This document shows, in pieces, positions 384 to 52,590 of a stretch of 64,000 nt of DNA. The translations under genes and the position numbers were made by a program. The number at the start of each line of letters is the position of its first letter. Within the stretch, counting starts at the first letter, position 1. The DNA comes from Pelagomonas calceolata (taxonomy: Eukaryota; Sar; Pelagophyceae; Pelagomonadales; Pelagomonadaceae), in NCBI GenBank assembly GCA_918797485.1, contig CAKKNE010000005.1, forward strand, positions 682,001-746,000. The letters run 5' to 3'. The notes under the pieces are model-generated. The model did not search any database and had not been told where the DNA came from. It saw only the letters and a list, made by a program, of their open reading frames with translations.

Positions 384-403
384 GCTAGTGTCTTACAGCT
401 AGC
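384..403 (+). promoter_or_regulatory. Palindromic promoter motif, copy 1
   Basis: GCTAGTG, then TCTTACA, then GCTAGC: a 20-bp short form of the repeated promoter palindrome. It lies in the 568-bp divergent gap (117-684) between the partial gene at 1-116 and the kinase at 685. That gap also holds a perfect 9-bp hairpin at 538-566; I see no gene in the rest of it. Confidence 0.7.
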
Positions 404-537
404 CCACTCCCAGCTGCGCCTTTGTCTTTCGCTCCCGATCGCCCTTGTTGGAGGCCGCTGCGACATATCCGTGGCTCGGTATACCTTCAAGGCTGATCCG
501 CTCGAAAACCGGTGCAGCGACGGCACCCGCACTCCAT

Positions 538-566
538 AAAAGGGCCCTCAAGTAGGAGGCCCTTTT
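538..566. repeat. Perfect 9-bp inverted repeat (hairpin)
   Basis: AAAAGGGCC at 538-546 pairs exactly with GGCCCTTTT at 558-566 across an 11-base loop. It sits about 120 bases before the kinase start, so it would lie in a 5' leader or promoter. It looks like a bacterial intrinsic terminator, but nothing else here is bacterial. Function unknown. Confidence 0.6.
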
Positions 567-684
567 GCTCGGTGCTCGCTCCCACGCGCGAGGCGCCGCG
601 CGTCAAAAGACGGCCAGCGCGCAGACGCCACGGGACCGTGCCCCGCACGGAGACCCGCCCGCGCCACCACAAGCACACCGAGGC

Positions 685-2143
685 ATGAGCGCCGCGACGC
701 CCCGAAGACTAGCCCAGCGCCTCGGCTGGACGAAGGCGAGCGACGGCAAGGGCGGCGACTGGGAGGCCTGCGGCGGCGCGGCGAAGTTCAACCTCGAGAA
801 GCTCGTTGGAAGAGGCAGTTACGGCCAGGTCTGCGCCGCCACTCAAATTAGTGATGGGAAGCAGGTCGCCGTGAAACGAGTGGTAGGAGCCTTCGACTCT
901 CGCAGGGACGCGCTGTGCATCATCCGCGAAGTGCGCATACTCGCAGCCTTGCCGCGGCACGACAACATCGTGAACCTCCTAGATGTGAGGACGCCGCTCG
1001 AAGACCCCAGTGATGATGCGGACGTGTTCCTCATCTTTGAAAAAGCAGCCACGGACCTGGAGAAGGTCGTGGCCTCGAACCAGTACTTCACGGGCGACCA
1101 CATCCGGTGGCTCTCGCTCGACTTGTTGCGAGGCCTGCGGTGGCTCCACAGCGCGGGCGTCGTCCACCGCGACCTCAAGCCGGCGAACACCGGTGTCCGT
1201 ATTTCAAGGGGAAGGGGGTCTGCGGCGGTTTCACGCCATCGACGCGCGTCGTCTCCAGGAGAGGAGGCCGTGGGTGGTCTCTTTTCCGATTTTGAGGCCG
1301 TTTTTGACTGAGACGGTTCCGTCCGCACAGGCGAACTGCCTCCTGGAGGTCAAGCCCGTCTCCTTGAAGATCTGCGACTTTGGTTTAGCGCGAACGCTAC
1401 CTCGACAACACTTACAACGTTCTGTGTCATTACGGGCGGCGGACGACGACGACGCGGAGTCGCCCAAAGTGTTGCATGCGCGGCCGCCCTTGCGGCGCCA
1501 GATGACCACGCACGTCGTGACGCGGTGGTATCGGGCGCCCGAGTTACTGCTGCGGGCGCCTCAATACAATAGTAGTGTCGACATGTGGGCTTGTGGGTGC
1601 GTCCTAGCTGAACTTTTGTCCATGGAAAAGGCGTCGGTGAAGTGTTATCTTGATAGAAGACCGTTGTTCCCCGGGGACGCGTCCGACCTGTCGCCGAGAA
1701 CGAGGGCGATCGAACCGGGCGACGACCAGCTCGCTACCATAGTCCGAGTCGTTGGTTGTTCAGTACAGGACGTGGCAGCTTTATCGTCTTCGACAGAGGT
1801 GGCTCAAAGACTAGAGGCTGCGAAACGGGCCGCCCCTACAGGCAGGAGGACCTTCGCCGCGCTGTACCCGGGCGCGGAGAAGGACGCCGTCGACCTGCTG
1901 GAGAATTTGATCAAGATGGACCCGGCACAACGGTACTCGGCGGATCAATGTTTGGATCACGCCTACCTGAAGCCGATCCGCGGTGCAAATGATTTACTGG
2001 CGCCGCCGGACGCGCTGGACTCCGTGGACCCCGGGCCGTCGCTAGGGTTACCGCAGATCCGGCGGTTGATTCGGGACCACGCTCGCGGATTTGCCCAAGT
2101 CGCGGAGGCCGTCGAGCCGGCGGCGAAGAAGCGGCGCACTTGA
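685..2143 (+). CDS. MAPK-like CMGC protein kinase, TTH activation loop
   Basis: A two-exon Ser/Thr kinase of about 436 aa (exons 685-1182 and 1331-2143). The glycine loop GRGSYGQV is at residues 42-49, the lysine in VAVK at 64, HRDLKPAN at 161-168, DFG at 182-184, and the TRWYRAPE P+1 segment follows near 230. The spliced join restores HRDLKPANCLLE, which supports the intron. In the MAPK position usually TEY/TDY/TGY, residues 225-227 read TTH, so canonical dual phosphorylation on Thr and Tyr is not possible. About 40 residues rich in Asp and basic residues are inserted between DFG and the TTH. The C-terminus ends in a basic KKRR segment that may be a nuclear signal. The group is clear; the exact MAPK class is not. 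Confidence 0.88.
1183..1330 (+). mobile_element. Introner-type intron (GC-AG) in kinase gene
   Basis: The left flank GCGAACAC and right flank GCGAACTG form a partly decayed target duplication. Splicing from the left GC to the CACAG at the right end (148 nt) gives an uninterrupted kinase subdomain VI. The body contains the ACGCCATCGACGCG core shared with the other introners in the window. The donor is therefore GC, supplied by the duplicated target. Confidence 0.75.
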
Positions 2144-2349
2144 GTACTTGACCCCGGACGCGAGGCTAGTGCCCCTAAGGACCGCTGTGTTTTATCACCG
2201 CGACCGTCGACGGCGTTGGGGGGGGCGCACGAGTCGTACAAATCTTACTCGCGGAGACCGCGTCTTCTTCTGTGCAGGGGTGATGGTGATGGTAGAAAAG
2301 GGGGGGGCGGTGGTTCATTCCGCGGCGAGCTCGGCCTTCGCCGCGTCGC

Positions 2350-2535
2350 GTGCGTTCTTACAAGGACGCCAGCGCCTCGCTCGACGATCGCCGCGAGGCC
2401 GTGTCGACGCTCGATGACACGGCGCGGGTCGCGCGGCGCGTGCTCGGCGGCTCACACCCTACCACAAAGGGAATTGAGGGCGAACTGCGAAACGCGCGAG
2501 CCGCGCTCCGCGCCCGCGAAACGCCGTCGGCGTAA
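2350..2535 (+). pseudogene. 3' fragment of the TPR family (5'-truncated copy)
   Basis: About 60 codons match the C-terminal end of the MYND/RING-CH/TPR family: SYKDASASLDDRREAVSTL, then ARRVLGGSHP, ending ALRARETPSA and a stop. The copies ending at 59076 and 57714 have the same tail blocks. There is no ATG in frame and no upstream family sequence, and a G-rich, low-complexity stretch (about 2215-2310) precedes it. It looks like a dead or 5'-truncated duplicate lying between the kinase and the patatin-like gene. Confidence 0.65.
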
Positions 2536-2568
2536 GACTGGGCGCGTAATATACCACAAACAATTACA

Positions 2569-3573
2569 TCACCGCCGCCGCAAAACCCCCACGACCGCCC
2601 CCGCCACGCCGGCGACGAGCGCCGACAGCGCCAGCGCGTCCACGGCGCCGGCGACGCGTTTTTTGGGAGACACGCGGCAGACGTAGTGGCCCGGCGCCAC
2701 GCGCTCCAGCGGCCGGTCCAAGGCGGCGACGACGGCCTCGCGCGCCCCGTCCAGCGCCGCGGCGACGCGGACCCGCGCGCCGGGCGGCAGCGGCACGACG
2801 CGCGTGTTTCCTGTTAAAACGACGGAGCAGACCTCGCGCACACCTAAAGACGAGGGCGACTCGACGACCCAGGGCCCGTTGAAGGGCACGTCGGCGTGGC
2901 AGACCTGCAGCACGCGCGACTCTGGAGACGTCTGAAGTCCGCGGCAGCCCGACGCGTCCGTGAAGAAGGCCACGTCCGTGTATAGTGATGAGCCGATGTG
3001 CACGGGCGGGAATAAGGGAGGAAACGCTCCCGAGGCAAAGCACACGAGCTCGAGCGGGCCCTCCGACAGGATGTCTGAGCGCATGCTCTTAAGGTCGAAT
3101 GCTGTCGTAGAGAAGGGCAACATATCTAAACTCTGGACGTCGCGCCCACCCACGAGCCCCGAGAAGTGCTTCCGGAACGTCGAGAGTCTAGCCCAGCCGC
3201 CCTCATATAGAGCCAAGTCGTCGAAGTCCAACAGAGCGTCGCGAAACCGCATGCGCTTCACCAGGGCCTCGAAGGCCTCCAGCGGGCAGTTCGGCGCCGC
3301 TAAGACGGCAGCGACCTTCGCACCGCTTGACGCCCCGGCGACGCCGTCCAAACGCTTGCGCAATTGGCGCGGCCCGCCGACGCCGTCCGCCAGTCCTAGA
3401 GCGACCCCAATCGACGCCGCCTCGCAGCCGAAGCCCTGGGAGAAGGCCGCGCTGAAGGTGTCCTTCTCGAGCCATTCGCGGAGCGTCGGCGCGTCTTCGC
3501 ATGAGGCCGTCGTGATTGTTGTAACGGCGGCTGCTTTACGGGCGAGGTGGCGGATGTTCTGGGCGAAGGCCAT
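2569..3573 (-). CDS. Patatin-like / RssA-like acyl hydrolase
   Basis: About 334 aa from the ATG at 3573 (another in-frame ATG lies at 3660). The N-terminus MAFAQNIRHLARKAAA is basic and amphipathic and could target mitochondria. A glycine-rich stretch (GFGCEAASIGVALGLADG) is followed by GASSG, fitting the patatin GXSXG nucleophile elbow, and later by DASG, which may hold the catalytic Asp in the place of the usual DGG or DGA. The final 20 residues are hydrophobic then basic, so the protein may be membrane anchored. The expected role is hydrolysis of membrane lipid acyl chains. The degenerate oxyanion and Asp motifs make substrate and activity uncertain. Confidence 0.65.
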   Translation of the reverse strand: MAFAQNIRHLARKAAAVTTITTASCEDAPTLREWLEKDTFSAAFSQGFGCEAASIGVALGLADGVGGPRQLRKRLDGVAGASSGAKVAAVLAAPNCPLEAFEALVKRMRFRDALLDFDDLALYEGGWARLSTFRKHFSGLVGGRDVQSLDMLPFSTTAFDLKSMRSDILSEGPLELVCFASGAFPPLFPPVHIGSSLYTDVAFFTDASGCRGLQTSPESRVLQVCHADVPFNGPWVVESPSSLGVREVCSVVLTGNTRVVPLPPGARVRVAAALDGAREAVVAALDRPLERVAPGHYVCRVSPKKRVAGAVDALALSALVAGVAGAVVGVLRRR

Positions 3574-3761
3574 CGCTGTCGTCGCTCTGCGCGATGGCGT
3601 GCAGAGTGCGCAGCCTGCAGGCTGCTGCTTTAGGAGTCTAGGCGTGTGAGCAATGCACAAATGATAACGCAGCGCAGAGCACTGGTGTGAGCTTGCAAGC
3701 GTGTGCCAAATCTGATTGTTTTGAGCTGCGTGAGCCCAAGTCAGCTGTGAGAGCTCCGCTT

Positions 3762-3784
3762 GCTAGTATCTCTATAACGCTAGC
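3762..3784 (+). promoter_or_regulatory. Promoter palindrome, variant copy
   Basis: Arms GCTAGTA and CGCTAGC flank TCTCTATAA: both outer arms are kept but the centre differs from the consensus. It lies about 100-190 bp upstream of the patatin-like gene start. The surrounding gap 3661-4020 has no gene I can support. Confidence 0.5.
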
Positions 3785-4020
3785 CCGAATCGCACGAAAT
3801 CGCACGCCTTGTTTTGAGCCTTCCAGAGGAGTCCCGCGGGGAGCATCAGTGTTGCGCGCGCAATGCTCCAAGGCGGATCTAGGCCTGCCGACTTGGTCTG
3901 CAGCTCAGAGCCACAATCCGCGCGCGGTAAGCTAATTGATAAAGGTCTGCGCGTGAATACCGCACATTTCTTCTAACTTCACGGCGGGTCAGAGATTGAT
4001 TAGAGTTTTACCGCTCCTGA

Positions 4021-4560
4021 TACCTTTTTGTAATTTTTTGGGCTCTCCCAATTTTTCACAATCGGGCCGCGGCGGCCGGTCGCGCGCGCCAGGTCTCCGA
4101 GGATCGAGCTACGGCGGCCGACGCAAACCGCTCCGATGCCGCGGCCGCGTTCTGTGCGCACGCCGCCGCTCTACGCGCGAACGCGGCGGCTTTGGGAGCC
4201 GCGACGTACGCGGCGCGGGCTCAAGCCCTGGCCGAGTCCGCAGGAAACGAGGCCACGCGCGAGACGCTCGCCACGGAGCTCGAGGCTGCTCTGGATGATG
4301 CGGACGCCTTGCGCGACGCGCTCCGCCGCCGCGCGCCGCCGCCGCGACCTGTCGCCGACCGGCGCTCCGTCTCGGCGCCAGTCGAAGCCGTCGCTTCACT
4401 CGAGGCCGACCTCGACGCGCTCCGACGGGACGTGGCATCTCTGCGGCCGCGCCAGCAGGCGTCGCGCCCCACATGGCTCCTCTTTGCCGCCGCGGGCGTC
4501 GTGCTGACGGCGTGGATCCTGACGCCCGAAGACCCCTACGCCGCGGCGCTCGCGAGCTAA
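4021..4560 (+). CDS. Small coiled-coil protein with C-terminal TM segment, start unresolved
   Basis: The frame is open from 4021 to the TAA at 4560. The well-behaved part starts near 4081, is rich in Ala/Arg/Glu with coiled-coil character, and ends in a hydrophobic helix, PTWLLFAAAGVVLTAWIL, followed by about a dozen residues. That is the plan of a tail-anchored membrane protein. There is no ATG in frame, so the start is probably in an upstream exon; GCGCCAG before GTCTCC near 4092 could be an acceptor. I do not recognise a family. Confidence 0.4.
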   Translation, partial: YLFVIFWALPIFHNRAAAAGRARQVSEDRATAADANRSDAAAAFCAHAAALRANAAALGAATYAARAQALAESAGNEATRETLATELEAALDDADALRDALRRRAPPPRPVADRRSVSAPVEAVASLEADLDALRRDVASLRPRQQASRPTWLLFAAAGVVLTAWILTPEDPYAAALAS

Positions 4561-4580
4561 AACGAGCTAAACATGTCAAG

Positions 4581-5441
4581 TTACATTGGGTAGGACGCCC
4601 CCGTCAGCTCCTTCAGGTCGTCCCAGAGCTTCTTTCGGGCCGCGGGGTCCTTCGCTTCCCGGTTCAGACCCGTGCCCGCGCACTCGCCCGACGACCGCCC
4701 GTAACTCTCGTCCACGAGCATGTGGTAGGACCGCGTCGCCTGCGCGACCGGGATGCCGCAGCGGCCCCAGCCCGCAATTAGCATTTTCGTGTTGACCGTA
4801 CCGGGGTCCATTGTATGAATACAAAGCGAGGGCGGGTCGCCGTAGCGCGCGTCGAGCTCCATTGCGATCATGGCGCAGCAGAGCTTGGAGAGGGAGTAGG
4901 CGCGGTGCTCCGACCAGCGCTCGCACTGGAGGTCGTTCAACGCGTCCGCCGCGCCGGCCGACATCGACGACGTGACCAGGATGCGACCGGCGCCCGAGGC
5001 CCGGACGCGGTCGAGGAGCAGCGAGGTCAACAGGAAAGGGGCTAATACGTTGACGGCCAACGAGTACTCATTTCCCTCGGCCGTGACGACGCGTTTGCCG
5101 GTGTAGTCTCCACTAAAGGTTCCTGCGTTGTTGAGGAGACCGTCGATGCTGTCATAAGCTTCCGCGATCTCGGCGCCGAGACGCCTCACGTCTGCCATCG
5201 AGCTCAAATCGGCCACGAAGCCTCGCGCGCTCCCGCCGTTCTGCTCGACCTCGGCTACTACTGCGTCGACTTTCGACTTCGTTCTGCCGTGCACGGCGAC
5301 GTGGAGACCGTCCGCGCCCAGCTTCTGGGCGGTGAGCCTCCCTATGCCGTCCGTGGCCCCAGTTACGACGTAGACCTTGCTCGGTTTCGCGGCGGCAGCT
5401 ACGGTCGCCATCGCTGCGAGTCTTTGGGCAGTGATGCGCAT
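4581..5441 (-). CDS. Short-chain dehydrogenase/reductase
   Basis: 286 aa, single exon. Classical SDR features are all present: the cofactor motif TGATDGIG near residue 28, NNAG near 105, an active-site Ser in VTSSMS near 155, and the YSLSK Tyr/Lys pair near 182. Spacing and the GRTKSKVDAV segment resemble retinol dehydrogenase/WWOX-like SDRs that use NADP(H). A second ATG at residue 11 (MATVAAAAKP) is an alternative start. The gene runs head-to-head with the 5602 gene across only 160 bp and tail-to-tail with the small TM protein 20 bp away. The substrate cannot be told. Confidence 0.88.
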   Translation of the reverse strand: MRITAQRLAAMATVAAAAKPSKVYVVTGATDGIGRLTAQKLGADGLHVAVHGRTKSKVDAVVAEVEQNGGSARGFVADLSSMADVRRLGAEIAEAYDSIDGLLNNAGTFSGDYTGKRVVTAEGNEYSLAVNVLAPFLLTSLLLDRVRASGAGRILVTSSMSAGAADALNDLQCERWSEHRAYSLSKLCCAMIAMELDARYGDPPSLCIHTMDPGTVNTKMLIAGWGRCGIPVAQATRSYHMLVDESYGRSSGECAGTGLNREAKDPAARKKLWDDLKELTGASYPM

Positions 5442-5601
5442 CTCTGGACAGCCGCACAGAGTGTTTTGCCGCCCCCAGCCGGCCGGAGAGCAAACTTGCT
5501 CTGGCTAAGCTGGCAGGCTGAAAAGAGCACCGGAGAACCACAGGGCTCGCTCAGTGCTAACAGAGGACAAGCCTGAACGTCCCATAAACTTTCCTCGAAT
5601 T

Positions 5602-6555
5602 ATGGCGACAGTACGGCTGCTAACCATGCTGCCACTCTGGTGGAGCCTCTGCGTAAGCAGTGCGCTCACGCCGGTACGGCTGCGAACGCTGCCACTCTGG
5701 TGGAGCCTGTACATAAGCAATGCGCTCACGCCGCAAGCCCTTCTCGCCGAATGGCAAGCGGCGAGGATCAAGTCGCTGGACGTCGACGCCTCGCGCTACC
5801 ACGCGCAAGTCCTTTTCGTGGACGACGACAACGCGCGCGCGCGCATGGCCGAGAGCTGCGCGGACGCGCTGGCCCATTGGGCAGATGCGGGATGGTGGAT
5901 CTATCCACATTCCTGCAGCCTCACAGAGGACCAGGCGCTCATCGAGAACCCGCGCCAAGAGGCAATTCTCACATCTCTCGGGTTCGACGGCACGCGGGTC
6001 ACCGCCGCCGGCGCGGCGCTCGCGAAGGAGGACCTGGACGCGTACGACCTTGTTATTTGCGCCGACGCGGCCGTCCGCGACGCGGTCCTGGCCCTCGGCG
6101 AAGAGAGCTACGAGACGTCCGTGCGTCTCCTCGCTGATTTTGCGACGGTCGCGGACGCGCGGTCGCGGGCGCTCTTCGACGGCCTGGATGTCGCCCTCGC
6201 GGAGCGCGCGCGCTCACGTCAGGACGGTGGCGAACTTGTGGTTGAGGGAGCCGACGCGCAGAGCGACCGCGACGGCTTCGACGCCCTGCTGGAATCGACG
6301 CTCGTTCTGACCGCGGCGCTCGTCGTGTTCCTCAAAGATTCGTTCGACGCTTCATTCACCGACAGCTTCAACGGCTTGTTGCGCACCCATTTCTACGACG
6401 AGCGCCACGTCGACGCACGGTGGGCGGACGCCGAGCCGGCGCTGCGCCGCCACATCGTCACCGGGGCGCTCGACCCACGCGAGCGCGAGCGCCTCTTCGA
6501 CGCCCACATGACCGGGCTTCGGCAAAGGCTTAGCGGCGACGGCGTTTCGTCGTGA
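5602..6555 (+). CDS. LMW-phosphotyrosine-phosphatase-like protein without catalytic Cys, duplicated signal peptide
   Basis: 317 aa from the ATG at 5602. After the leader, VLFVDDDNARARMAES aligns with the LMW-PTP/arsenate reductase P-loop VLFVCxGNxCRSPMAE, but the nucleophile Cys is Asp and the second Cys is also lost. Further on, YDLVICADAAVRDAVLAL corresponds to the beta-strand that follows in that fold. The enzyme reaction is thus unlikely; a binding role is possible. The leader holds two near-identical signal peptides in tandem (LPLWWSLCVSSALTP and LPLWWSLYISNALTP), each ending in an A-L-T-P that resembles the stramenopile plastid ASAF site. Family assignment is by motif only. Confidence 0.6.
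   Translation: MATVRLLTMLPLWWSLCVSSALTPVRLRTLPLWWSLYISNALTPQALLAEWQAARIKSLDVDASRYHAQVLFVDDDNARARMAESCADALAHWADAGWWIYPHSCSLTEDQALIENPRQEAILTSLGFDGTRVTAAGAALAKEDLDAYDLVICADAAVRDAVLALGEESYETSVRLLADFATVADARSRALFDGLDVALAERARSRQDGGELVVEGADAQSDRDGFDALLESTLVLTAALVVFLKDSFDASFTDSFNGLLRTHFYDERHVDARWADAEPALRRHIVTGALDPRERERLFDAHMTGLRQRLSGDGVSS
5611..5733 (+). repeat. Tandem duplication of the signal-peptide-coding segment
   Basis: Unit 1 is 5611-5673 (63 nt) and unit 2 is 5674-5733 (60 nt, one codon shorter). They share long identical blocks such as GCCACTCTGGTGGAGCCT and TGCGCTCACGCCG. The copy keeps the reading frame, so the protein has two consecutive hydrophobic leader segments. Confidence 0.9.
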
Positions 6556-6598
6556 TGTGTGATATCTGTCCTAAAGTATGTGTGATTCATGTTTCGGA

Positions 6599-6618
6599 GC
6601 TAGCGTATCGACACTAGC
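6599..6618 (-). promoter_or_regulatory. Promoter palindrome, GTATCGAC variant
   Basis: GCTAGC, then GTATCGAC, then ACTAGC. It keeps both arms, but the usual TGTAAGAC centre is GTATCGAC, exactly as in the copy at 30413. It lies 133 bp before the DUF285 gene start. Confidence 0.6.
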
Positions 6619-6750
6619 TTATGGCGCTTGGGGCGGGGAGGGGTCCCGCAAGACCGCGCGCAAAACCCGTCGGTTAAGCTGAGGCTAGCGCTGGCTAGGC
6701 GCTGTGCTTCAGCCGTCGGGCAGCCTCACGACGGAACCAGGCAGCATACC

Positions 6751-11507: not shown

Positions 11508-12117
11508 GCTTGCGGGGCGCGGGGCTGCCCTGGTGCCACTGTGCTTGGCGTTGAATGGGCTCGGCGCCGCTTCGTCGCTTTTGACTCGTCAAAGGGTGCT
11601 ACGAGCTGTCCGTTTCGAGACCTTGGGGCTCTGGCTGCACCGCCGCCCGCCTTCCCTCTGCTTGAGATGGTGCTTTGGCGCTGCGCTCTCCCGCGCGGGC
11701 CTTCGGATGGGTTTTAGACTTGGAAAATGCGTAGGCGCAGTCCCCGAGGGGCTCTGCGACGTGTCGTGCCTCGCTCTGATGCTTTCGCCGCGAGCCTGTA
11801 AAACCCGTACATCGTCGAGCATAATCGAGTCGACCATCTTGTGGCCGCAATACGAGCTGTTGAGCTCTTACGAACTGCACGTTGCAGCGCTTATCAATCA
11901 CTGATGCTGCGACAGAGAGATGTCGCTTCGCGTTACCGCCGTGGACTCGCCTCTCGGAGAGCACACTTGCCTCGCCCGCTGCGGCGGCGCGCGCGAGCCG
12001 CAAGAAACGACACGAAGGCGTCCCGCACGCACGTCGGCCGATAGGCTGCACGACGCCGCGACGCGAAACGCCCGCGCAGGTAACGCCGCCGAGAGACGCC
12101 GAGCGCCGCGCACCGGC
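11508..12117. other. Divergent intergenic region
   Basis: 610 bp between the start of the coiled-coil gene and the start of eIF1. Long frames occur on both strands but are unlike the neighbouring proteins and look like GC-driven chance frames. The promoter palindrome found at most other divergent gaps is absent here. Confidence 0.5.
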
Positions 12118-12501: not shown

Positions 12502-12525
12502 GCTAGCGGCCTGTAAGACACTAGC
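12502..12525 (-). promoter_or_regulatory. Promoter palindrome, consensus copy
   Basis: GCTAGCG, then GCCTGTAAGA, then CACTAGC (reverse orientation). It is 140 bp before the F-box gene and 52 bp after the eIF1 stop. Confidence 0.75.
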
Positions 12526-15543: not shown

Positions 15544-15569
15544 GCTAGCGGGCCTGTTAAGACACTAGC
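15544..15569 (-). promoter_or_regulatory. Promoter palindrome copy
   Basis: GCTAGCG, then GGCCTGTTAAGA, then CACTAGC. It lies 170 bp upstream of the cyclophilin fusion start, in the gap 15375-15729. The same gap contains a G-run cluster at 15674-15698 (four GGG tracts) that could form a quadruplex. Confidence 0.7.
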
Positions 15570-18090: not shown

Positions 18091-18115
18091 GCTAGTGTCT
18101 TACAAGGACGCTAGC
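18091..18115 (+). promoter_or_regulatory. Promoter palindrome in a divergent promoter
   Basis: GCTAGTG, then TCTTACAAGGA, then CGCTAGC. It sits in the 396-bp gap (17909-18304) between the CS-domain gene (minus) and mS34 (plus). I see no other feature in the gap. Confidence 0.75.
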
Positions 18116-18793: not shown

Positions 18794-18816
18794 ACTAGCG
18801 GCCGTAAGACACTAGC
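18794..18816 (-). promoter_or_regulatory. Promoter palindrome copy
   Basis: ACTAGCG, then GCCGTAAGA, then CACTAGC. It is 162 bp before the SNF2 gene start, in the gap 18665-18977, which holds nothing else I can identify. Confidence 0.75.
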
Positions 18817-23610: not shown

Positions 23611-23632
23611 GCTAGCGCTGTAAGACACTAGC
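23611..23632 (-). promoter_or_regulatory. Promoter palindrome in a divergent promoter
   Basis: GCTAGCG, then CTGTAAGA, then CACTAGC. It lies midway in the 247-bp gap between the plastid lumen gene (minus, start 23511) and the ELMO gene (plus, start 23759). Confidence 0.78.
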
Positions 23633-26871: not shown

Positions 26872-26895
26872 GCTAGTGTGTTACAGCCCGCTAGC
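26872..26895 (+). promoter_or_regulatory. Promoter palindrome between divergent genes
   Basis: GCTAGTG, then TGTTACAGCC, then CGCTAGC. It is 112 bp before the MYND gene and 57-87 bp before the possible starts of the minus-strand membrane protein. Confidence 0.75.
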
Positions 26896-28129: not shown

Positions 28130-28153
28130 GCTAGCGGCCTGTAAGACACTAGG
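28130..28153 (-). promoter_or_regulatory. Promoter palindrome copy
   Basis: GCTAGCG, then GCCTGTAAGA, then CACTAGG. It lies just after the MYND gene stop and about 250 bp before the start of the surface-protein gene at 28404. The gap 28117-28403 has no other support. Confidence 0.7.
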
Positions 28154-30412: not shown

Positions 30413-30434
30413 GCTAGCGTATCGACGCACTAGC
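30413..30434 (-). promoter_or_regulatory. Promoter palindrome, GTATCGAC variant
   Basis: GCTAGC, then GTATCGACG, then CACTAGC. It has the same variant centre as the copy at 6599. It is in the 348-bp gap (30325-30672) between the protease gene and the small ORF at 30673. Confidence 0.6.
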
Positions 30435-32069: not shown

Positions 32070-32093
32070 GCTAGCGGTGCGTAAGACACTAGG
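32070..32093 (-). promoter_or_regulatory. Promoter palindrome copy
   Basis: GCTAGCG, then GTGCGTAAGA, then CACTAGG. It is 126 bp upstream of the rsmH start. Confidence 0.72.
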
Positions 32094-32882: not shown

Positions 32883-33199
32883 TCGCTGGCCTACTTTGGC
32901 AACCCGTAAGTCTCATCTGCGAATGTCGCCGGCGGTGCCTTCCGGGAGGCGCGAGGGTATGTTATCGGGCCGCTACTCTAAAATATTTGGCCTCGGCGAA
33001 CGACTAGGATGTATTCTGAATTTTGGTCATTCTTTTGACGCTATCCGGGCGTATCTTTGACATTGCTAGTATGTCGCTACGCTAGGTGTTGCACGTGCTG
33101 GCCAGCGGCTCCTCGGAGCCTCCTGGAGCCACTAGAGACGGCGCAGCGATGGCGTGGAGCCCGACGCCATCGACGTGACCTAGAAGATTACTATGAACG
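32883..33199. other. Gap with a degenerate palindrome and an introner relic
   Basis: At 33065-33086 arms GCTAG and CGCTAGG surround TATGTCGCTA, a degenerate promoter palindrome, the only copy not placed before a gene start. At 33146-33178 CGATGGCGTGG and GACGCCATCGACGTG form the introner core without its ends. No gene is supported here. Confidence 0.45.
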
Positions 33200-34354: not shown

Positions 34355-34378
34355 GCTAGTGACTTACAGGCCGCTAGG
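34355..34378 (+). promoter_or_regulatory. Promoter palindrome in a divergent promoter
   Basis: GCTAGTG, then ACTTACAGGC, then CGCTAGG. It is in the 292-bp gap between the PDZ gene (minus) and the plastid zinc-finger gene (plus, start 34461). Confidence 0.72.
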
Positions 34379-35653: not shown

Positions 35654-35677
35654 GCTAGTGTCTTACATGCCGCTAGT
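35654..35677 (+). promoter_or_regulatory. Promoter palindrome copy
   Basis: GCTAGTG, then TCTTACATGC, then CGCTAGT. It is 190 bp before the start at 35868; the gap 35541-35867 has nothing else I can support. Confidence 0.75.
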
Positions 35678-38699: not shown

Positions 38700-38720
38700 G
38701 CTAGTATGTTGCACGCTATC
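38700..38720 (+). promoter_or_regulatory. Degenerate promoter palindrome
   Basis: GCTAGTA, then TGTTGCA, then CGCTATC. It lies midway in the 459-bp divergent gap (38492-38950) between the DnaJ gene and the F-box-like gene; a run of ten G lies near 38580. No other feature is supported. Confidence 0.45.
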
Positions 38721-42646: not shown

Positions 42647-42865
42647 TTAGCTGTGCTTCACAGGCTCTGCTTTGGGTGGTTTCGATGGGACGCGTGTAAT
42701 TCGTCGCTTGGACTTGCGCAGCGCGAGTAGCGGTATAGCTGCGAGTGCTGTCAATCCTGCTGGCGGCTCCCGCGGCGTGAAAGCGCGTGGCCGAGCAAAA
42801 GGCCTGCGCTCTGCATAATCAACTAGCGGCATGAAGACACTAGCATTCGAGGCAAACACCCGCAA
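42647..42865 (-). other. Upstream ORF of GCLC, in frame, one stop before the start
   Basis: A 72-codon ATG frame (MRVFASNASVFMPLVDYAER..., ending AEPVKHS) whose TAA is followed by AAC and then the GCLC ATG in the same frame. It overlaps the promoter palindrome at 42822-42844. If transcripts start upstream of it, it could act as an upstream ORF; it may equally be untranscribed. Confidence 0.25.
42822..42844 (-). promoter_or_regulatory. Promoter palindrome in a divergent promoter
   Basis: ACTAGCG, then GCATGAAGA, then CACTAGC. It is 179 bp upstream of GCLC, in the 501-bp gap (42644-43144) shared with the surface-protein gene at 43145. Confidence 0.72.
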
Positions 42866-45368: not shown

Positions 45369-45513
45369 TCAGCTAGATGCTGACAATGCATGCGAACCGG
45401 CAAGCCGCTTTTTGGGGCCAAATTTGCAAATCACGCTGGCGAAAAACCCGTCACAATGGCCGGGGGCGACGAGAGGAAGGGGCTGGAACAAGGACGGTAG
45501 GGCAAATACTTAG

Positions 45514-46932
45514 TTAGTGCCCCTGGATCAGACTGCCATTCTTCGTCACGCCCTTTTTCAACTCGGTCAAATCCATGGACCGGCGCCAATCCGCGGCGAG
45601 CTCACCGTGCGCGGCCTCGTGGATCAACCGCCGCGCTTCCCGGTCGCGGGCAACCAAAGCCATGGACGTGGCCAACGCTCGAGCGTCGGCCGCGCGTTCG
45701 TGGGCCTTGGCCTTTCTCTGATGCTCCTCTGCTGCTCTCACCTGCCCACTCAGTTCCTTGTCATACTCAGCAGCCTTCTTCCGCTTCCCAATGTGGTCCG
45801 GCACGTAGTTCAGGAACGGAAACGCTTTGGTGGCTTCCGCCATGGTCCAGGGTTCTGACACGCGATCCAGGGCCTTTCTGGCGCGGGCCTCGTCGGCTTG
45901 CAAGAGCACGTTTTGGGCATTTTCCAACTCTAACGTATGATGGGCGGCCATACGCGCGGCCTGCCTCCTTCGGTCCTCGTCTCTCACCCGAACCATTTCC
46001 CGCTCTTCATACTCGGTTTTTTTGTGGGCGTTCTGGAGAGCGCGCTCGTAGGCGTCGTACTGCTGGGCGACGTTCTGGCGCCTCGCGGTCTTTAGTAAAG
46101 GTTTAATAGCGTCGTCGCGGCCCATTGGTGCTAATAGCTGATCGAGTATTCCTAATACTTGTCTCGGTTCGGGTTTGCGGCCCGGCGTCAAATCTTCATA
46201 GCTCCCTTTCTGGCGCGCACTCAACCGAGACGAGGCGAGGGCCGACCGCGCCGTCACCGCCGCGCGGCTGCGGGCGGTGGAGCGCGCCGTCGCCGGCGGC
46301 TGGGACCGCGCCGTCGCCGGCTGTGAGCGCGCGGTCGACCGAGCCGACCGGACGGTCGAGAGGTGGTCCGAGCGGCCCGTCGAGAGTCGCGCCGTCGATG
46401 GTGCTACTTCAATAGGTGCTTTGGAGACTTGTGTAGGTTGAGGCGCCCGTGCCCCATACACGAAGCGGACCACCCGAGCATCGCAGCGCAGTTCCCCTAT
46501 AGATCCGATGGGCAGGCGCACCTTCCGCCCTAAAGCTGCCGCCGCTCCTACATATCTAGCCACAGCAGCGACAGTAGCCTTGGCCTCGTCCTTCGACAAA
46601 CCGGCGTTCGCCGCCGCGGCAAAACAATTCAACGCAGCACAAGGCGCGACGAGCTGCGACCGGGGCGGCTCGTTCGGCGCGAGGCCGTTGATTCGCAAGA
46701 ACTGGGGGTCCGCCGTAAACAAGGGTTTCCTAATCCCAAATTCCTCGTGGACGTTGGAGGTTCTCAAGTAAGTCCACCTCCCGAGTCCCGGTATGGACAG
46801 GCCTTTGCCCGCGGCGAGCGTGCCGTCCGCGAGGCGGCCGACGGCGGACCACAGCCGTCGCGTCTTCTCCGCACCCAAGCCTGTCACAGCTCCCACCTCC
46901 TCGGCCAGCTCCCTCGGGCCGTAGGTGGCCAT
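45514..46932 (-). CDS. CCDC81-like protein with HU-type domains
   Basis: 472 aa. Two N-terminal domains of the CCDC81 HU type: LWSAVGRLADGTLAAGKGLS then IPGLGRWTYL, and VAPCAALNCFAAAANAGLSK then GRKVRLPIGSIGELR. A Ser/Thr/Arg repeat linker (TARSQPATARS style) follows, then a long charged coiled coil (EYEEREMVRVRDEDRRRQAA; EHQRKAKAHERAADARALAT). CCDC81 proteins are centrosome or cilium associated in animals; the HU-like fold there is not thought to bind DNA. Single exon. Family assigned by recall of the domain pattern. Confidence 0.7.
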   Translation of the reverse strand: MATYGPRELAEEVGAVTGLGAEKTRRLWSAVGRLADGTLAAGKGLSIPGLGRWTYLRTSNVHEEFGIRKPLFTADPQFLRINGLAPNEPPRSQLVAPCAALNCFAAAANAGLSKDEAKATVAAVARYVGAAAALGRKVRLPIGSIGELRCDARVVRFVYGARAPQPTQVSKAPIEVAPSTARLSTGRSDHLSTVRSARSTARSQPATARSQPPATARSTARSRAAVTARSALASSRLSARQKGSYEDLTPGRKPEPRQVLGILDQLLAPMGRDDAIKPLLKTARRQNVAQQYDAYERALQNAHKKTEYEEREMVRVRDEDRRRQAARMAAHHTLELENAQNVLLQADEARARKALDRVSEPWTMAEATKAFPFLNYVPDHIGKRKKAAEYDKELSGQVRAAEEHQRKAKAHERAADARALATSMALVARDREARRLIHEAAHGELAADWRRSMDLTELKKGVTKNGSLIQGH

Positions 46933-47200
46933 GAATGCCGGGGCTCCCTTGCTTACAGTGTTTTTTTACCGGCGCCTGCTACGGCGCGTGCGGCGCTGCT
47001 TGGTCCTGTTGGTTGGTTTTACGCACGCTCCCTCGCGCTTTGCGTTGGGCAGCGTTTCAGCGCTCCCAACCCAGGCACGGAGAGGCTCGCAGGCGGCGCT
47101 GTGTCGCGGTCTGGCCTAGCAAGTCGCGGGGCAGCATGAATCGCTCGCCGGCGGCGCCGGGAGGGTTCGCGGCGGCCACGCACGTATCTCGCGCTTGTTT

Positions 47201-47225
47201 GCCTAGTGTCTTACAAGCCGCTAGC
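47201..47225 (+). promoter_or_regulatory. Promoter palindrome in a divergent promoter
   Basis: GCCTAGTG, then TCTTACAAGC, then CGCTAGC. It is midway in the 513-bp gap (46933-47445) between the CCDC81-like gene and the SET gene; no other feature is supported there. Confidence 0.75.
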
Positions 47226-47445
47226 CCAGCTTGGCTGCCGCTCTTTTGACGCTCGTAGAGCTTGAATTTTGCAGCATTTGCATCGATTTCATACTGCACG
47301 GCTTCCCTGCTGCGTGCCCTGAAGCGTTCATAGCTTGCACTGACGTAGCACCAACCCTGAGCAGCCGAGCAGCCACAACTAGCCTAGCACACTTGGAGAG
47401 CGCTCAAATGCAGCAGGACTAAACAAGTGCTAATCAATTCCTCAA

Positions 47446-48036
47446 ATGCCGCTCCGCAAGCTGCGCACCGCTGCGTACGCCCTCGCCGGTGCCGCCGTCG
47501 CCGCGCGGCTCGCCCGGGCCTACCGCCAACGAAAACGACGGCGGCGCCAGCGGGCGCGCGAGGCGGAGTATAGGGTGGGCCCGGCCTGGCGCCGGCTGCG
47601 CGTCGCGCCGTCGACCGTTAAAGGCGCCGGCGAGGGCCTCTTCGCGACGGAGCGCATCGCCGCGGACGAGACGATCGGTTTTTATAGAGGCGAGGTCCTG
47701 ACGTTAAGGGAGGCTTTACAACTGAAGGACCGCGACTACCTGATGGGCGGCTTCGGGCCGAACGCCCACGTCGACGCCAGTAAGGCATTTGCGATGCCGG
47801 GGCGGTACGTGAACGACGCCTTCGATCCCACGAGGCTCAACGCGCGCTTCGACAAATCAAGGAAGACGCGCTCCGCGCGCGTCGTCGCGCTGCGCGATAT
47901 TGTAGAGGGCGAGGAGATCTTCGCGAGTTATGGAAGGAGCTACTGGAGCGCGCGCGGCGTCGACGTTGACGGAAGGAGCCTTCTACCATTCAAGGAGAGG
48001 TGGCGGGCGACCTTGCTGTGGCTGTTGTTCGGGTAA
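47446..48036 (+). CDS. SET-domain protein
   Basis: 196 aa. A short hydrophobic/basic N-terminus (LAGAAVAARLARAYRQRKRR) could be a membrane anchor or targeting signal. The SET domain is compact: VAPSTVKGAGEGLFATERIA, then DETIGFYRGEVL, then GRYVNDAFDP and NARF (in place of NHSC), then ARVVALRDIVEGEEIFASYG, then RSYW. Domains like this occur in lysine methyltransferases that act on histones or other proteins. There is no pre-SET or post-SET zinc cluster. It is tail-to-tail, 8 bp from the next gene. Confidence 0.85.
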   Translation: MPLRKLRTAAYALAGAAVAARLARAYRQRKRRRRQRAREAEYRVGPAWRRLRVAPSTVKGAGEGLFATERIAADETIGFYRGEVLTLREALQLKDRDYLMGGFGPNAHVDASKAFAMPGRYVNDAFDPTRLNARFDKSRKTRSARVVALRDIVEGEEIFASYGRSYWSARGVDVDGRSLLPFKERWRATLLWLLFG

Positions 48037-48043
48037 GACTATA

Positions 48044-48634
48044 TTAACTAAACCCCGCCCCCTTGCGGCTTTTTGGCTTCGCGCCCTTCCCCCGTTTCCG
48101 TTTGACCGTCTTCCGCGCCGGCTCCTCGAACACGACGCGCTCCTCTGGTATTTGAACATCATCGTCATCTTTCCGCTTCGCCTTCGACAGCACTCCTTTG
48201 TCTTCCAGTTGTTTGTTCAGCGCGACGGCCTGCGCGTAGCCCATGGCGTCGGCCTCGTCGTAGACGTCCTTGAACGCCTTCATGACGCCGGCGAAGGGGT
48301 TGTTGTTGCTCGGCGGCGTCTCCGGTTGCTCCGTCCGCTTCGGCGGCTTCGCGCCGCTCGCCTGCCTTTCCCTTAACTCCTCCCAGATCCGCAATTGATT
48401 CTGCTCGATCGCGTTTTTGTCGAGGCCCCAGAGCGCCGCGCCGATCTGGCCCTTCTTTTCTCTTGATTTCTGCTCCGCCTCCACAATCCGTTCCCAGACC
48501 TCCTCGGGGCAGTCGTCGGGCCGCGCTCTTAGAAGCGTCGGCGGGCGCGTGCTGCTCTGCAGCCGCATCGGCGGGCGCGTGCTGCCCTGCAGCGCGTTGC
48601 AGGTTGCGAGGGCGAGGAGGAGCGGACTGTGCAT
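48044..48634 (-). CDS. Probable plastid-targeted protein of unknown function
   Basis: 196 aa. The leader MHSPLLLALATCNALQGSTR looks like a signal peptide with an N-A-L-Q site, followed by an Arg-rich transit-like stretch with a small tandem duplication (STRPPMRLQS and STRPPTLLR; about 26 bp repeated in the DNA near 48537-48590). The mature part is charged and helical (DDCPEEVWERIVEAEQKSRE, then NNNPFAGVMKAFKDVYDEAD) and ends in a very basic tail (KRKRGKGAKPKSRKGAG). No known family. It may bind RNA or membranes. Confidence 0.6.
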   Translation of the reverse strand: MHSPLLLALATCNALQGSTRPPMRLQSSTRPPTLLRARPDDCPEEVWERIVEAEQKSREKKGQIGAALWGLDKNAIEQNQLRIWEELRERQASGAKPPKRTEQPETPPSNNNPFAGVMKAFKDVYDEADAMGYAQAVALNKQLEDKGVLSKAKRKDDDDVQIPEERVVFEEPARKTVKRKRGKGAKPKSRKGAGFS

Positions 48635-48825
48635 CTCTTGCTGCGGCGGCGTGCGACGGCGTCAGTCAAGGTGTGCTCTCACAGTCGGAGAAGCTTGCTG
48701 TGCGTAACTGCCGCCCTTTTTTCACAAGAGCGTATCTGCCGCAAGTAAATCGTCGCGTTTAATACCGCTTTGGCCAGCTGTGTGCATGCAGGGCGGCTGC
48801 GCGCGCAAGTTGCAAGCAGAGCCGA

Positions 48826-48848
48826 GCTAGCGGTGGTAAGCCACTAGC
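48826..48848 (-). promoter_or_regulatory. Promoter palindrome in a divergent promoter
   Basis: GCTAGCG, then GTGGTAAGC, then CACTAGC. It is in the 423-bp gap (48635-49057) between the plastid-protein gene and the WWE gene. A run of ten C lies near 48937. Confidence 0.72.
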
Positions 48849-49057
48849 TTGAGCGCGGATTTTGCAGTGCGCTGCATATCCGAAGCTGCCCCAGCGGCAC
48901 CACGCGACGAGCTCGGCCGCCCGATGCGCTCGAGTCCCCCCCCCCAGCTTCCTCAGCCTCACTGGCAATGATTTGCCAAAGCAGTCGACCAGACCGGAAA
49001 GCCTAGGGAGAAGACACTGCGCAGAGCAGCCGTACGCCGCAAATTAAAAAAAAGAAA

Positions 49058-49705
49058 ATGGCACAATACGAACACAGAGATGCGAACAACGAATGGCACC
49101 CGTTTTCCCACATGGAAAATGACAAAATAGAGCGCGCCTACCGCGCGAACGGGTGTAGGGTTCACCTCACGATGCCCCTGAACCCGGTTGGATTCAGAGA
49201 ATTTGAAATACGGTTCGGCGACAGCGCGCGGAGCAAGAAAATGCCGCGGCCGCCTTCTACCAAGATCATTCAGGTCAACGTCGCGAGCGGCGCGACAAGG
49301 GTCGTCCGGCGCCTCGGGCCAATTGACCAGCCGACGACGGCGCCAACATTACAATACCATGGTCCCGCGACAAAAAAAAGGAGCGTCGTGCCAATTGACC
49401 AGCCGACGATGGGGCCAACAGATGCAGCTCCCGATTGGGCTGCTGCAAAAGGTGCAGCACCTGGAGGGCGTGTTGAGACAGAAAAACACTGTGGCAAATA
49501 TACTTGGTGTTACGCGATCCTCTTCTGCTGCTCGTGTACCCCTTGTTTTATATGCGGGCAGTGCCGTTGCGACGAACGCTTATTATACATTGATCCAAAT
49601 GGAAATCGGTACCAAGGCCCAGACATCCCCGTCTGCACGGATTATTTATGCAAACCCCGGGACCCTTACTGGGGATCTGATCCAGGGGGGGGAGGGGGGT
49701 TTTAA
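49058..49705 (+). CDS. WWE-domain protein with Cys-rich hydrophobic segment
   Basis: 215 aa. Residues about 8-85 form a WWE domain: NNEWHPFSHMENDKIERAYR, then VHLTMPLNPVGFREFEIRFG, closing with TRVVRR. WWE domains bind ADP-ribose chains in ubiquitin ligases and PARPs. A duplicated linker (PIDQPTTAPT and PIDQPTMGPT) precedes a Cys-rich hydrophobic stretch (KYTWCYAILFCCSCTPCFIC, then GQCRCDER), which could be palmitoylated or bind metal, and a Gly-rich end. It is AT-richer than its neighbours, and the A-rich ATG context is strong. Confidence 0.72.
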   Translation: MAQYEHRDANNEWHPFSHMENDKIERAYRANGCRVHLTMPLNPVGFREFEIRFGDSARSKKMPRPPSTKIIQVNVASGATRVVRRLGPIDQPTTAPTLQYHGPATKKRSVVPIDQPTMGPTDAAPDWAAAKGAAPGGRVETEKHCGKYTWCYAILFCCSCTPCFICGQCRCDERLLYIDPNGNRYQGPDIPVCTDYLCKPRDPYWGSDPGGGGGF

Positions 49706-49910
49706 GATTTCAATGCTCCGAGTCGCTTCCACACATGCAGCAGCCTCCGCCAGCGACGAGGGTGCTCCGCCAGCGACGAGGGTGCCTCAGGACTTCTCTC
49801 GTCTCTCGGTGAGTGCATTGGAAGTCGAGGCGTAGGCATCCGACAAGAACCCTGTGCGGCCCTCCGAGTCCATACCCAACCACAATACTGTACTTGTACT
49901 ACAAACAAAC

Positions 49911-51194
49911 CTACACAGGCGCCCCGCCGCCAGCAGCCTTCAAAATCCACGCGACGGCCGGCCCGTCGCCGCCGGCCACGTCGTCGCGCAGCGCCGCCAG
50001 GACGCCGCGGTCCGCGCCCGCGGCCAGGGCGCACTTGCTGAGGTAACACCGCGCGAACGCGCCCCGGGACGCGTCGCCGAAGCCGCGGGCAACCCTCGCG
50101 AGCCGCGCCGCGACGGCGTCGACGGCCTCGTCGCCGAACTCGCAACAGCCCAGTAGCGCACTTTCCACATAGAACCGCGGCGCGAGGAGCCGCAGCGCGT
50201 GGACCTTCGCCATCCAATTCCCGTGCGTGTCGCGCGCCGTCGGCGTCGCGCGCTGGTCCTTTTCTTTTTCCCGCAAGCGCGCGAGGACCAATGCGGCGAA
50301 GGTATCAAGCGTCCGCACGGCCGACACGAAGTCTTGAGCCGTCGCCGCCATCCCCGCGACCTCGTCCGCGACGAGCTGCAGGCTCTCCACGCGGTCGCCG
50401 CGCGCCCAGACGGCCTCGAGGCGGCCGTCGTCGGGCGCGGCGGCTACGTGCGCCCAGTGCGAGGCCCAGTCGGGGCGGCTCGCGTCGACGGCGACTGTCT
50501 TGGGCGGCGCCGCGAGCGGATGAGAGTCCATGGCGACACGCTCCCGCCCCGAGGGCCGCACGAGCAGCACCTCGAAGCGCCTCATTCCCCCATCGTCGCG
50601 GAGGAGGACCTCGACGGCGTGCCTCCGCAGCGCGGCGGCAAGGGAGGCGTAGGCTATTGGCTCGTGCCGCTCGCACGCGAGGAGAGCGGTGGAGCCGGCC
50701 GCGATCGCCGCGTCCACCAACGAACACAGCGCCTGTACACTGTCCTGGTGGTAGCAGACGTCAGCGCCCAGCACGAGATCGCAGGCCGGCAGGGCATCCG
50801 TATTCCAATCGAGGGCCGCCACCGACACGTCGCACCCACACAGGGACTGGACCCAGCCGTTGCGCGTCGCGTTGCGTCGGAGGAGGGCGAGGTTTTCTGG
50901 CAGATCTGTGAGCACGACGCGGGCGGCGCCGAGCGCCGCGCACGCGAGGCCGGCGATGCCCGTCCCGCTTCCCAGCTCGACGATGCGTTTGCCGGCGACG
51001 AGCTCCCGGCGCGACTGCAAGAGTTCCACGAGCCGCTCGCCGCCCTTCCACACCGTGCAGGCCGTGCCTAATGGATCTGTGCCGCCCAGTGTTGGTGGTG
51101 TTTGCTCCAACTCCAGCGCCGCGGGGCCGACGGGCACGGTCCTGTGCGCGATGAAGCGCTGCTCGAAGGGCATGTCGGCGGTGTCGTCCCACAT
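49911..51194 (-). CDS. Methyltransferase-16 joined to a VPS35L-like segment
   Basis: 427 aa from the ATG at 51194 (MWDDTADMPFEQRFI); an upstream ATG at 51395 would add an unlikely Arg-rich start. Residues about 15-220 are an MT16 lysine methyltransferase: WKGGERLVELLQSRRE, motif I IVELGSGTGIAGLACAALGA, VVLTDLPENL, ACDLVLGADVCYHQD. After a linker, residues about 270-425 (SLQLVADEVAGMAATAQDF, then APRFYVESALLGCCEFGDEA, then GFGDASRGAFARCYLSKCAL) resemble the N-terminal part of VPS35L (C16orf62), a Commander/Retriever subunit, but stop early. It is either a true fusion or a gene whose 3' part was lost; further 3' exons are possible. Confidence 0.65.
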   Translation of the reverse strand: MWDDTADMPFEQRFIAHRTVPVGPAALELEQTPPTLGGTDPLGTACTVWKGGERLVELLQSRRELVAGKRIVELGSGTGIAGLACAALGAARVVLTDLPENLALLRRNATRNGWVQSLCGCDVSVAALDWNTDALPACDLVLGADVCYHQDSVQALCSLVDAAIAAGSTALLACERHEPIAYASLAAALRRHAVEVLLRDDGGMRRFEVLLVRPSGRERVAMDSHPLAAPPKTVAVDASRPDWASHWAHVAAAPDDGRLEAVWARGDRVESLQLVADEVAGMAATAQDFVSAVRTLDTFAALVLARLREKEKDQRATPTARDTHGNWMAKVHALRLLAPRFYVESALLGCCEFGDEAVDAVAARLARVARGFGDASRGAFARCYLSKCALAAGADRGVLAALRDDVAGGDGPAVAWILKAAGGGAPV

Positions 51195-51436
51195 TTCTAC
51201 GACTGCGCCGGCTTGCTTGCGTTGATGCCCCCCGTCCCTGCGATGACTAACGACTGCACGGGTACAGGCCGCACGAATGGCGGTAGGGTGCTCTCCTGCA
51301 GCCTGTCCACTCGGCCGCAGCAGGACTCGCACGGCTCGCCGCAGCTGCAGCAGGAATACCAGTCGCCGACTCAGACCTCGTTCAGCTGCTCGCACGATCC
51401 AATGTTGCTCGTAGACGCGCGCCGAGTAGTCCAGTT

Positions 51437-51460
51437 GCTAGCGGCATGTAAGACACTAGG
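51437..51460 (-). promoter_or_regulatory. Promoter palindrome in a divergent promoter
   Basis: GCTAGCG, then GCATGTAAGA, then CACTAGG. It lies in the 521-bp gap (51195-51715) between the methyltransferase gene and prefoldin 3; nothing else is supported there. Confidence 0.75.
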
Positions 51461-51715
51461 CATCCTGGACAAGTTTTGCCCGCGCCCATTGCGGCACGCC
51501 CTGCAGCATTCCACGTGCAAGAGCTGCCAAGACAACGCCACTCATACACACAAGGCCATACGCAGTTGCCGCGCGCAACGCCACCGTGCAAAGGAAAAGG
51601 GCTGTCTCGCCGCCGCCGCGACTTCTTAACACGCGCGGCGCGACGGTGCAGCGCCACGCGCCCGCAGCACCCTAAATAGCACAGCCGGTGCAGCGCCCCA
51701 CACTAAACCGCAGCC

Positions 51716-52366
51716 ATGGCCGAGGAGTCCAAGGGCGACGCGGAGACCACCCTCGATAAAAACTCCGCGGCGACGGAAGATGCCAGCGAGCAGTTCAAGA
51801 ACATCAAGATGGCCACGATCTTGTCCGGGGAGAAGAACGCTAGAGGTATACCCTACGTGGCGTTCATCGATAGCGTTGAAGGCACGCTGGCTACGACCAC
51901 AGATGGCACTGTTGAGAAGCTGATAGGAGCCATGAACGAGCTCCACCAGAAGTTCAAGATTCTGGAGGGCCACAAAGCGCGAACGAAGGCCTCCATGAAG
52001 CTGAAAATCCCCGAGATTAAAAGAACACTACAATTAGTGAGACACATCCAGGAGAAACACGAAGCCTCAGAAGACTTCGGTGCTCATTATTCTCTCTCGG
52101 AAATGCTCTATGGTCGCGCCAAAGTCACGCCCGACGGGACCGTGTGTCTATGGCTCGGTGCGAACGTCATGGTCGAGTATCCCTACGATGAAGCTATATC
52201 TATCTTGGAGTTATCTCTGAAGAATGCTTGTCTGAGGAGAGACATCTGCGAGGAGGACCTGGACATGGTGCGCGACCAGATCATCACCGTCGAGGTGAAC
52301 ATCGCGCGCGTCTTCAACCATGATGTGGTTAGAAGGCGGCAGGCCAAGGGCGAGGTCGAGGCGTGA
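51716..52366 (+). CDS. VBP1: Prefoldin subunit 3 (VBP1)
   Basis: 216 aa. An alpha-type prefoldin subunit of the hexamer that hands nascent actin and tubulin to the CCT chaperonin in the cytosol. Features: ARGIPYVAFIDSVEG near the start, a coiled-coil arm (NELHQKFKILEGHKARTKAS, KLKIPEIKRTLQLVRHI), the beta-hairpin core (VCLWLGANVMVEYPYDEAIS), and the second arm (DICEEDLDMVRDQIITVEVN, IARVFNHDV). Length is normal (human 197). Single exon; AT-richer than the surroundings in the coiled-coil part. Confidence 0.95.
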   Translation: MAEESKGDAETTLDKNSAATEDASEQFKNIKMATILSGEKNARGIPYVAFIDSVEGTLATTTDGTVEKLIGAMNELHQKFKILEGHKARTKASMKLKIPEIKRTLQLVRHIQEKHEASEDFGAHYSLSEMLYGRAKVTPDGTVCLWLGANVMVEYPYDEAISILELSLKNACLRRDICEEDLDMVRDQIITVEVNIARVFNHDVVRRRQAKGEVEA

Positions 52367-52403
52367 GTTGGGTGGTTGGGGGGTAACTAGTTTTCTCGTT
52401 ATT

Positions 52404-52417
52404 GCGTCGATGGCGTC
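52404..52417. mobile_element. Introner core relic after prefoldin 3
   Basis: GCGTCGATGGCGTC is all that remains of the introner core, 38 bp after the VBP1 stop, without inverted ends or duplication. It may be in the 3' UTR; a chance match cannot be excluded. Confidence 0.3.
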
Positions 52418-52573
52418 GGGCTGGGTAGTCCTCGACGGACGCGCCGCCACCACGGCCGCGCGTCAGCCCCCGGGAGCTGGCGATCGGCCCGTCTCAGCGC
52501 GGTGACTCATCAGACTAGCATAGAGGGCTCCCGCGCACTACTCCAACGCTGATCGCTGCTAGAAAAATGCTAG

Positions 52574-52590
52574 GCTAGTGTGTTACAGGC
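52574..52590 (+). promoter_or_regulatory. Half promoter palindrome
   Basis: GCTAGTG then TGTTACAGGC is present but the right arm is lost. It is 204 bp before the 1637-aa gene, in the gap 52367-52777. Confidence 0.5.

Follow-up and report, generated by a model that had tools for sequence, protein, structure and literature searches.

A recurring asymmetric two-arm element at predicted promoters of Pelagomonas calceolata, a putative site for a general promoter-organising protein

Why does one short sequence recur in front of so many unrelated predicted genes? The question is raised by a stretch of 64,000 nucleotides of the marine alga Pelagomonas calceolata (positions 682001-746000 of contig 5 of a 32,445,274-base genome in 8 contigs; the whole stretch is called the window below), in which an initial annotation, made from the letters alone, had noticed 21 copies of a 20-26 bp pattern. 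As far as the available text of PMC9481584 describes it, the assembly of strain RCC100 comprises six nuclear contigs of 32.4 Mb, one plastid contig and one mitochondrial contig, with 16,667 genes and 0.45 intron per gene. We find that the element is present in most divergent and in about half of the tandem intergenic regions of a larger sample, as a single copy and in either orientation. It is probably a double-stranded, bipartite and asymmetric binding site for one abundant sequence-specific protein, which would organise promoters generally in this alga.

Placement relative to predicted genes

Gene models were built with an order-4 coding hidden Markov model that allows introns, trained on the window together with four 50-kb blocks (C1-C4, 1.00-1.05 Mb). 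These 264 kb (64 kb of window and 200 kb of blocks) are the sample for placement, and the model predicted 165 genes, 46 introns and 204 kb of coding sequence (CDS) in them. A position weight matrix (PWM) was applied at a threshold of at least 9 bits to regions of at least 100 bp, and a separate arm/core score, with cut-offs from 12.5 to 14, was used for the lists of sites. The PWM finds the element in 42 of 56 divergent and 24 of 47 tandem regions, which makes 66 of the 103 regions that hold a gene start, and in one of 18 convergent regions, the site at window position 33065 (promoter-bearing against convergent regions, Fisher p=2.6e-6); reversed copies of the regions and equal-length pieces of CDS gave 1 of 121 each. 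Of the 165 predicted gene starts, 93 have the element in their upstream region. These counts support the initial proposal of a promoter marker or bidirectional-promoter factor site, and the broader claim that it marks most promoters holds for divergent regions and for about half of the tandem ones.

The arm/core score gives the same picture site by site. At a cut-off of 14 there are 61 sites, 36 in divergent regions, 21 in tandem regions, three in introns and one at an edge; 57 of the 61 thus lie in regions that hold a gene start, and none was found in the 204 kb of predicted CDS or in 54 convergent regions, so the sample shows an element that stays out of exons. Among the intron sites, C2:8696 and C3:5389 lie between complete same-strand open reading frames (ORFs), upstream of one of them when ORFs alone are considered, and look like mis-merged gene pairs; the third is C2:571. 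At 13.5 the 67 sites comprise 38 divergent, 22 tandem, one convergent, three intron, two CDS and one edge site; the two in CDS score 13.5 and 13.8 and may be chance matches, since the control count at that cut-off is nine. Nine further loci with the exact core (L001-L008 and L031), which took no part in training and were judged on ORFs only, include none inside an ORF and seven within 301 bp of a predicted start.

In divergent regions the element is central, with a mean relative position of 0.52 (standard deviation 0.115). The mean absolute deviation from 0.5 is 0.094, compared with 0.234 in simulation, and none of 20,000 random placements was as low. The median distance from element to ATG is 200 bp on both sides of divergent regions, and in tandem regions the element lies at medians of 73 bp from the upstream stop and 199 bp from the next ATG; over all sites scoring at least 14, the distance from element edge to ATG ranges from 51 to 374 bp. 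Each of the 57 regions has one element and none of 106 divergent and tandem regions has two, compared with 11 regions with two elements expected among the 103 if copies fell independently. The element has no preferred orientation relative to the gene: 49 of 93 flanks are gene-ward (p=0.68), and of the tandem sites 13 have the orientation of the gene and 8 the opposite one (p=0.38).

All 21 window sites given in the initial annotation exist, and 20 of them have both arms, the exception being 52574, which lacks the right arm. Also as first described, all but 33065 precede a predicted start (20 of 21, with the nearest ATG at 78-268 bp and all flanking starts at 78-310 bp) and none of the 21 is in a predicted coding exon. 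The sites are:

384-403, plus strand: element (20 bp), in the divergent region 117-684
3762-3784, plus strand: element, divergent region
6599-6618, minus strand: element, short-core form, tandem region
12502-12525, minus strand: element with the exact consensus GCTAGTGTCTTACAGGCCGCTAGC, tandem region
15544-15569, minus strand: element (26 bp), tandem region
18091-18115, plus strand: element, divergent region, 185 and 189 bp to the two ATGs
18794-18816, minus strand: element, tandem region upstream of a SNF2-domain gene
23611-23632, minus strand: element, divergent region
26872-26895, plus strand: element, divergent region
28130-28153, minus strand: element with the outer G of the left arm changed to C, tandem region
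30413-30434, minus strand: element, GTCGATAC-core form, divergent region
32070-32093, minus strand: element, divergent region
33065-33086, plus strand: weaker element, the sole sampled site between convergent genes
34355-34378, plus strand: element, divergent region
35654-35677, plus strand: element, tandem region
38700-38720, plus strand: weaker element, divergent region
42822-42844, minus strand: element, divergent region
47202-47225, plus strand: element, divergent region (first given as starting at 47201)
48826-48848, minus strand: element, divergent region
51437-51460, minus strand: element, divergent region, 242 and 255 bp to the two ATGs
52574-52590, plus strand: half element (left arm and core), 181 bp before the ATG at 52778, PWM score 3.6 bits

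Window genes that adjoin elements include SNF2, SET, DnaJ, prefoldin, ELMO, patatin-like and methyltransferase genes. The window has 45 predicted genes; of the 30 ORFs or exons submitted to Pfam, 21 matched a family at E<=0.001, one of these under the family's curated cut-off.

Anatomy, abundance and surroundings of the element

In the complete window sites the arms GCTAGTG and CGCTAGC, exact or nearly so, enclose TCTTACA or a variant of it, and the consensus including flank is TTGCTAGTGTCTTACA-n(0-4)-CCGCTAGC. The length is 20-26 bp (24 bp in 36 of the 61 sites scoring at least 14), a minority of elements have a GTCGATAC-like core (for example 6599 and 30413), and the two blocks hold about 31 bits of information, a value biased upward by the way in which sites were chosen. 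The pattern had been described as a palindrome, and its arms are indeed roughly inverted. True symmetry is absent, however; the left arm's T hardly varies and neither does the C of the right arm, so the arms differ by T/C and the palindrome is imperfect. Genome-wide, mixed arms occur at 2,333 places and symmetric arms at 36 (TG/CA) and 18 (CG/CG), with reversed controls of 1 and 6. The outermost bases show single changes without compensation (CC 573, GG 222, and compensated CG 45, compared with about 55 expected if they varied independently). The best fit to this anatomy would be a double-stranded DNA site for an asymmetric, flexible protein, with a symmetric homodimer, a cruciform and an RNA hairpin fitting less well.

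The element is far too abundant to be due to chance, as the initial annotation had argued from the window. Complete counts over both strands of the genome are 1,177 for exact GCTAGTGTCTTACA (581 forward and 596 reverse; reversed control 0), 2,333 for GCTAGTG-N(8-14)-CGCTAGC (1,175 and 1,158; 6, as 3 and 3, for the pattern read backwards) and 2,149 for the 24-mer when at most 3 mismatches are allowed (1,102 and 1,047; control 0). In the sample, the numbers of sites compared with reversed DNA are 61 and 1 at a cut-off of 14, 67 and 9 at 13.5, 88 and 38 at 13, and 142 and 122 at 12.5. Sites scoring at least 14 number 19 in the 64-kb window and 12, 10, 8 and 12 in the four 50-kb blocks, so their density is somewhat raised in the window; extrapolated from the 42 sites in the 200 kb of blocks, the genome would hold roughly 6,800 elements if these blocks are typical. 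A scan of a viral contig collection gave no element match.

A/T tracts cluster on both sides of the element, most of all in the nearest 20-30 bp, and a GC minimum (0.555) adjoins it; apart from these tracts, no word at a fixed distance from the sampled sites stood out. At one locus, and within or near the species, the element can be followed in a second sequence: a marine metagenome-assembled genome (MAG) contig (L029), the sole match of the element in a bacterial collection, is 96% identical over 1 kb to the sequence around G000:C1:2154808, and all 24 bp of the element are the same in both, with a 3-bp insertion directly next to it on one side and, on the other, substitutions at 9 and 12 bp and a 2-bp indel just beyond. 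This contig (CAJWEZ010000013.1) is filed as an uncultured Spirochaeta MAG; about 1.6 kb of it (2043-3615) is 90-96% identical to this alga, and a bacterial-type MgtE gene adjoins the algal-like stretch. The rest of that MAG gave no further two-arm match (1, compared with 10 reversed). The contig is probably chimeric or contaminated.

Candidate functions and their rivals

The best explanation, by analogy, is that the element would work like the sites of the yeast general regulatory factors Reb1 and Abf1. The parts of PMC7618759 that are available report that in yeast the Reb1 motif and Reb1 binding are enriched in polyadenylation-site regions with divergent promoters, and cite Abf1 and Reb1 as proposed organisers of the nucleosomes between two initiation complexes. 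The Pelagomonas element resembles yeast Reb1, Abf1 and Rap1 sites in its tie to divergent promoters; it differs in having another and longer sequence (20-26 bp) with a variable spacer, and in occurring in 66 of 103 promoter-bearing regions of the sample. Like a site of this type, it lies in the promoters of many unrelated genes irrespective of orientation, and it is absent from predicted CDS at scores of at least 14 and, bar 33065, from convergent regions. A single copy would mark the centre of the promoter region, the protein would keep that region open together with the flanking A/T tracts, and transcription could start to one side or to both, with two divergent genes then sharing one element. 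The protein, the depletion of nucleosomes and the setting of transcription starts are steps that we infer; centrality, single copy, random orientation, near-absence from convergent gaps and A/T tracts are the traces that a promoter-opening factor would be expected to leave.

Several points weigh against this reading. The element is missing from 14 of the 56 divergent regions and from 23 of the 47 tandem ones, so not every promoter needs it. The site at 33065 lies between convergent genes with a PWM score of at least 14 bits; an unannotated transcript perhaps starts there. Two of the nine further loci, L003 and L005, have no predicted start within 700 bp on the ORF-only view; both of these exact-core sites are in the first 70 kb of contig 1. 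Doubles exist outside the sample (G000:C1:575887 and 575924, 37 bp apart), and a spacer that varies so that the total is 20 to 26 bp is unusual for one rigid protein. The gene models were made in this analysis and are predictions, so every distance is measured to a predicted ATG. The regions scored with the PWM had also served to train it, and we therefore also give the tally outside the window, where 42 sites score at least 14: 23 divergent, 15 tandem, three intron and one edge (38 of 42 divergent or tandem).

Among the alternatives, the one least clearly contradicted takes the element as a boundary, insulator or road-block between transcription units, which would also halt read-through from the upstream gene. 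Sites between divergent genes, tandem sites that lie closer to the upstream stop than to the next ATG, and the convergent site at 33065 are all in its favour, but none of the 54 convergent regions has a site scoring at least 14 and one of the 18 that are at least 100 bp long passes the PWM. This counter-evidence is weakened by the shortness of convergent gaps (median 67.5 bp), and we regard the boundary function as unlikely. A plain chromatin boundary, one of the roles first suggested, has little support, as the element is nearly missing between convergent genes.

Another role first suggested, a core promoter element or initiator that would place polymerase II at a fixed distance, is improbable to a similar degree. 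The element does precede the ATG in more than half of the promoter-bearing regions, but it is asymmetric and yet randomly oriented, its distances to ATG are spread over 51-374 bp, and A/T tracts are all that stood out around it in place of a fixed-distance word; judged on ATG distances, it has neither the direction nor the fixed spacing of the INR class. The oomycete elements INR, FPR and DPEP are stramenopile promoter elements that work without a TATA box, INR with FPR being reported in about 13% of genes (PMC3599244, in the text available). Those elements lie near the start site, whereas the Pelagomonas element is orientation-free, is about 200 bp upstream of the ATG and has another sequence.

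A DNA cruciform or RNA hairpin, with arm pairing under selection, is very unlikely. All seven arm pairs can form in one orientation, one of them as G-U, but symmetric arms are rare and compensation is absent at the outermost pair, which is the pair tested; random orientation disfavours RNA, and Rfam gave no match at the gathering threshold in the window.

Equally far-fetched is an origin from a tiny mobile element that has inserted in promoters and left its ends or footprints there. The arms are imperfect terminal inverted repeats in thousands of copies, but the 61 sites have no target-site duplication (4-bp matches at offsets 0-5 in 0, 0, 0, 0, 1 and 1 of them) and no shared body of the kind found in miniature inverted-repeat transposable elements (little common sequence beyond about 4 bp from the arms); they are centrally placed, and no sampled region has two copies. 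The 300-bp flanks of the 67 sites scoring at least 13.5 gave nine alignments in eight pairs that involve nine sites, mostly of 22-37 bp with one of 149 bp; only a few flanks share other repeats, so the element does not look like the terminus of a single repeat family. Neither this outcome nor a frequent presence in exons, both named in the initial annotation as refuting it, was thus seen in the sample. Some interspersed repeat does lie beside element sites, in intergenic DNA, as a stretch of 149 bp with 147 identical positions (L023 7254-7402 and L024 7749-7897).

A second element and the promoter code

Regions without the element may in part use another one. The word AAACCCGT is found in 9 of 37 promoter-bearing regions that lack the main element and in 2 of 66 that have it (Fisher p=0.0015, an optimistic value because the word was picked by a many-word scan of the same data). 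The window shows a weak excess of it (5 compared with 1.7 expected; 4 of 100 shuffles reach 5), with three of its five copies in regions without the main element:

283-290, minus strand: AAACCCGT word, intergenic
6663-6670, plus strand: AAACCCGT word, intergenic
11801-11808, plus strand: AAACCCGT word, intergenic
45444-45451, plus strand: AAACCCGT word, intergenic
62707-62714, minus strand: AAACCCGT word, intergenic

The second element, AAAACCCGT, occurs 856 times genome-wide (reversed control 316), and three of its copies are near the centre of divergent regions; it presumably resembles telobox or Reb1-type Myb sites. Two other words, GGCTGCCC and ACGCCATC, are over-represented in the intergenic DNA of the window and the C1-C4 blocks, many of them near gene ends. 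It is conceivable, as a tentative extension, that over half of the promoters have one protein and one asymmetric element of about 24 bp as their nucleus, that this element alone sets both starts of divergent pairs, and that a largely exclusive second element AAAACCCGT serves part of the rest, a two-key promoter code in place of the diverse core promoter that other eukaryotes use.

Metazoan housekeeping genes offer a familiar case of long or information-rich sites that many promoters share, such as those of ZNF143, BANP/GFX and DREF; we know of no sequence likeness between those sites and the present element. A literature search for the sequence and for Pelagomonas, pelagophyte or stramenopile promoter motifs found no such element, and the string CTAGTGTCTTACA had no occurrence among the matches listed. 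The term 'motif' has no occurrence in the main text, as available, of the P. calceolata papers searched (PMC9481584 included), and the searchable Pelagomonas papers gave nothing on promoter sequence.

An element that stands upstream of 93 of 165 sampled gene starts would open direct access to the promoter code of a eukaryote that is abundant in the ocean. It could be used for start-site prediction, as bait for one master promoter protein and in bidirectional expression cassettes, and it offers a clean test of the way in which divergent genes of a compact genome can share a single control site.

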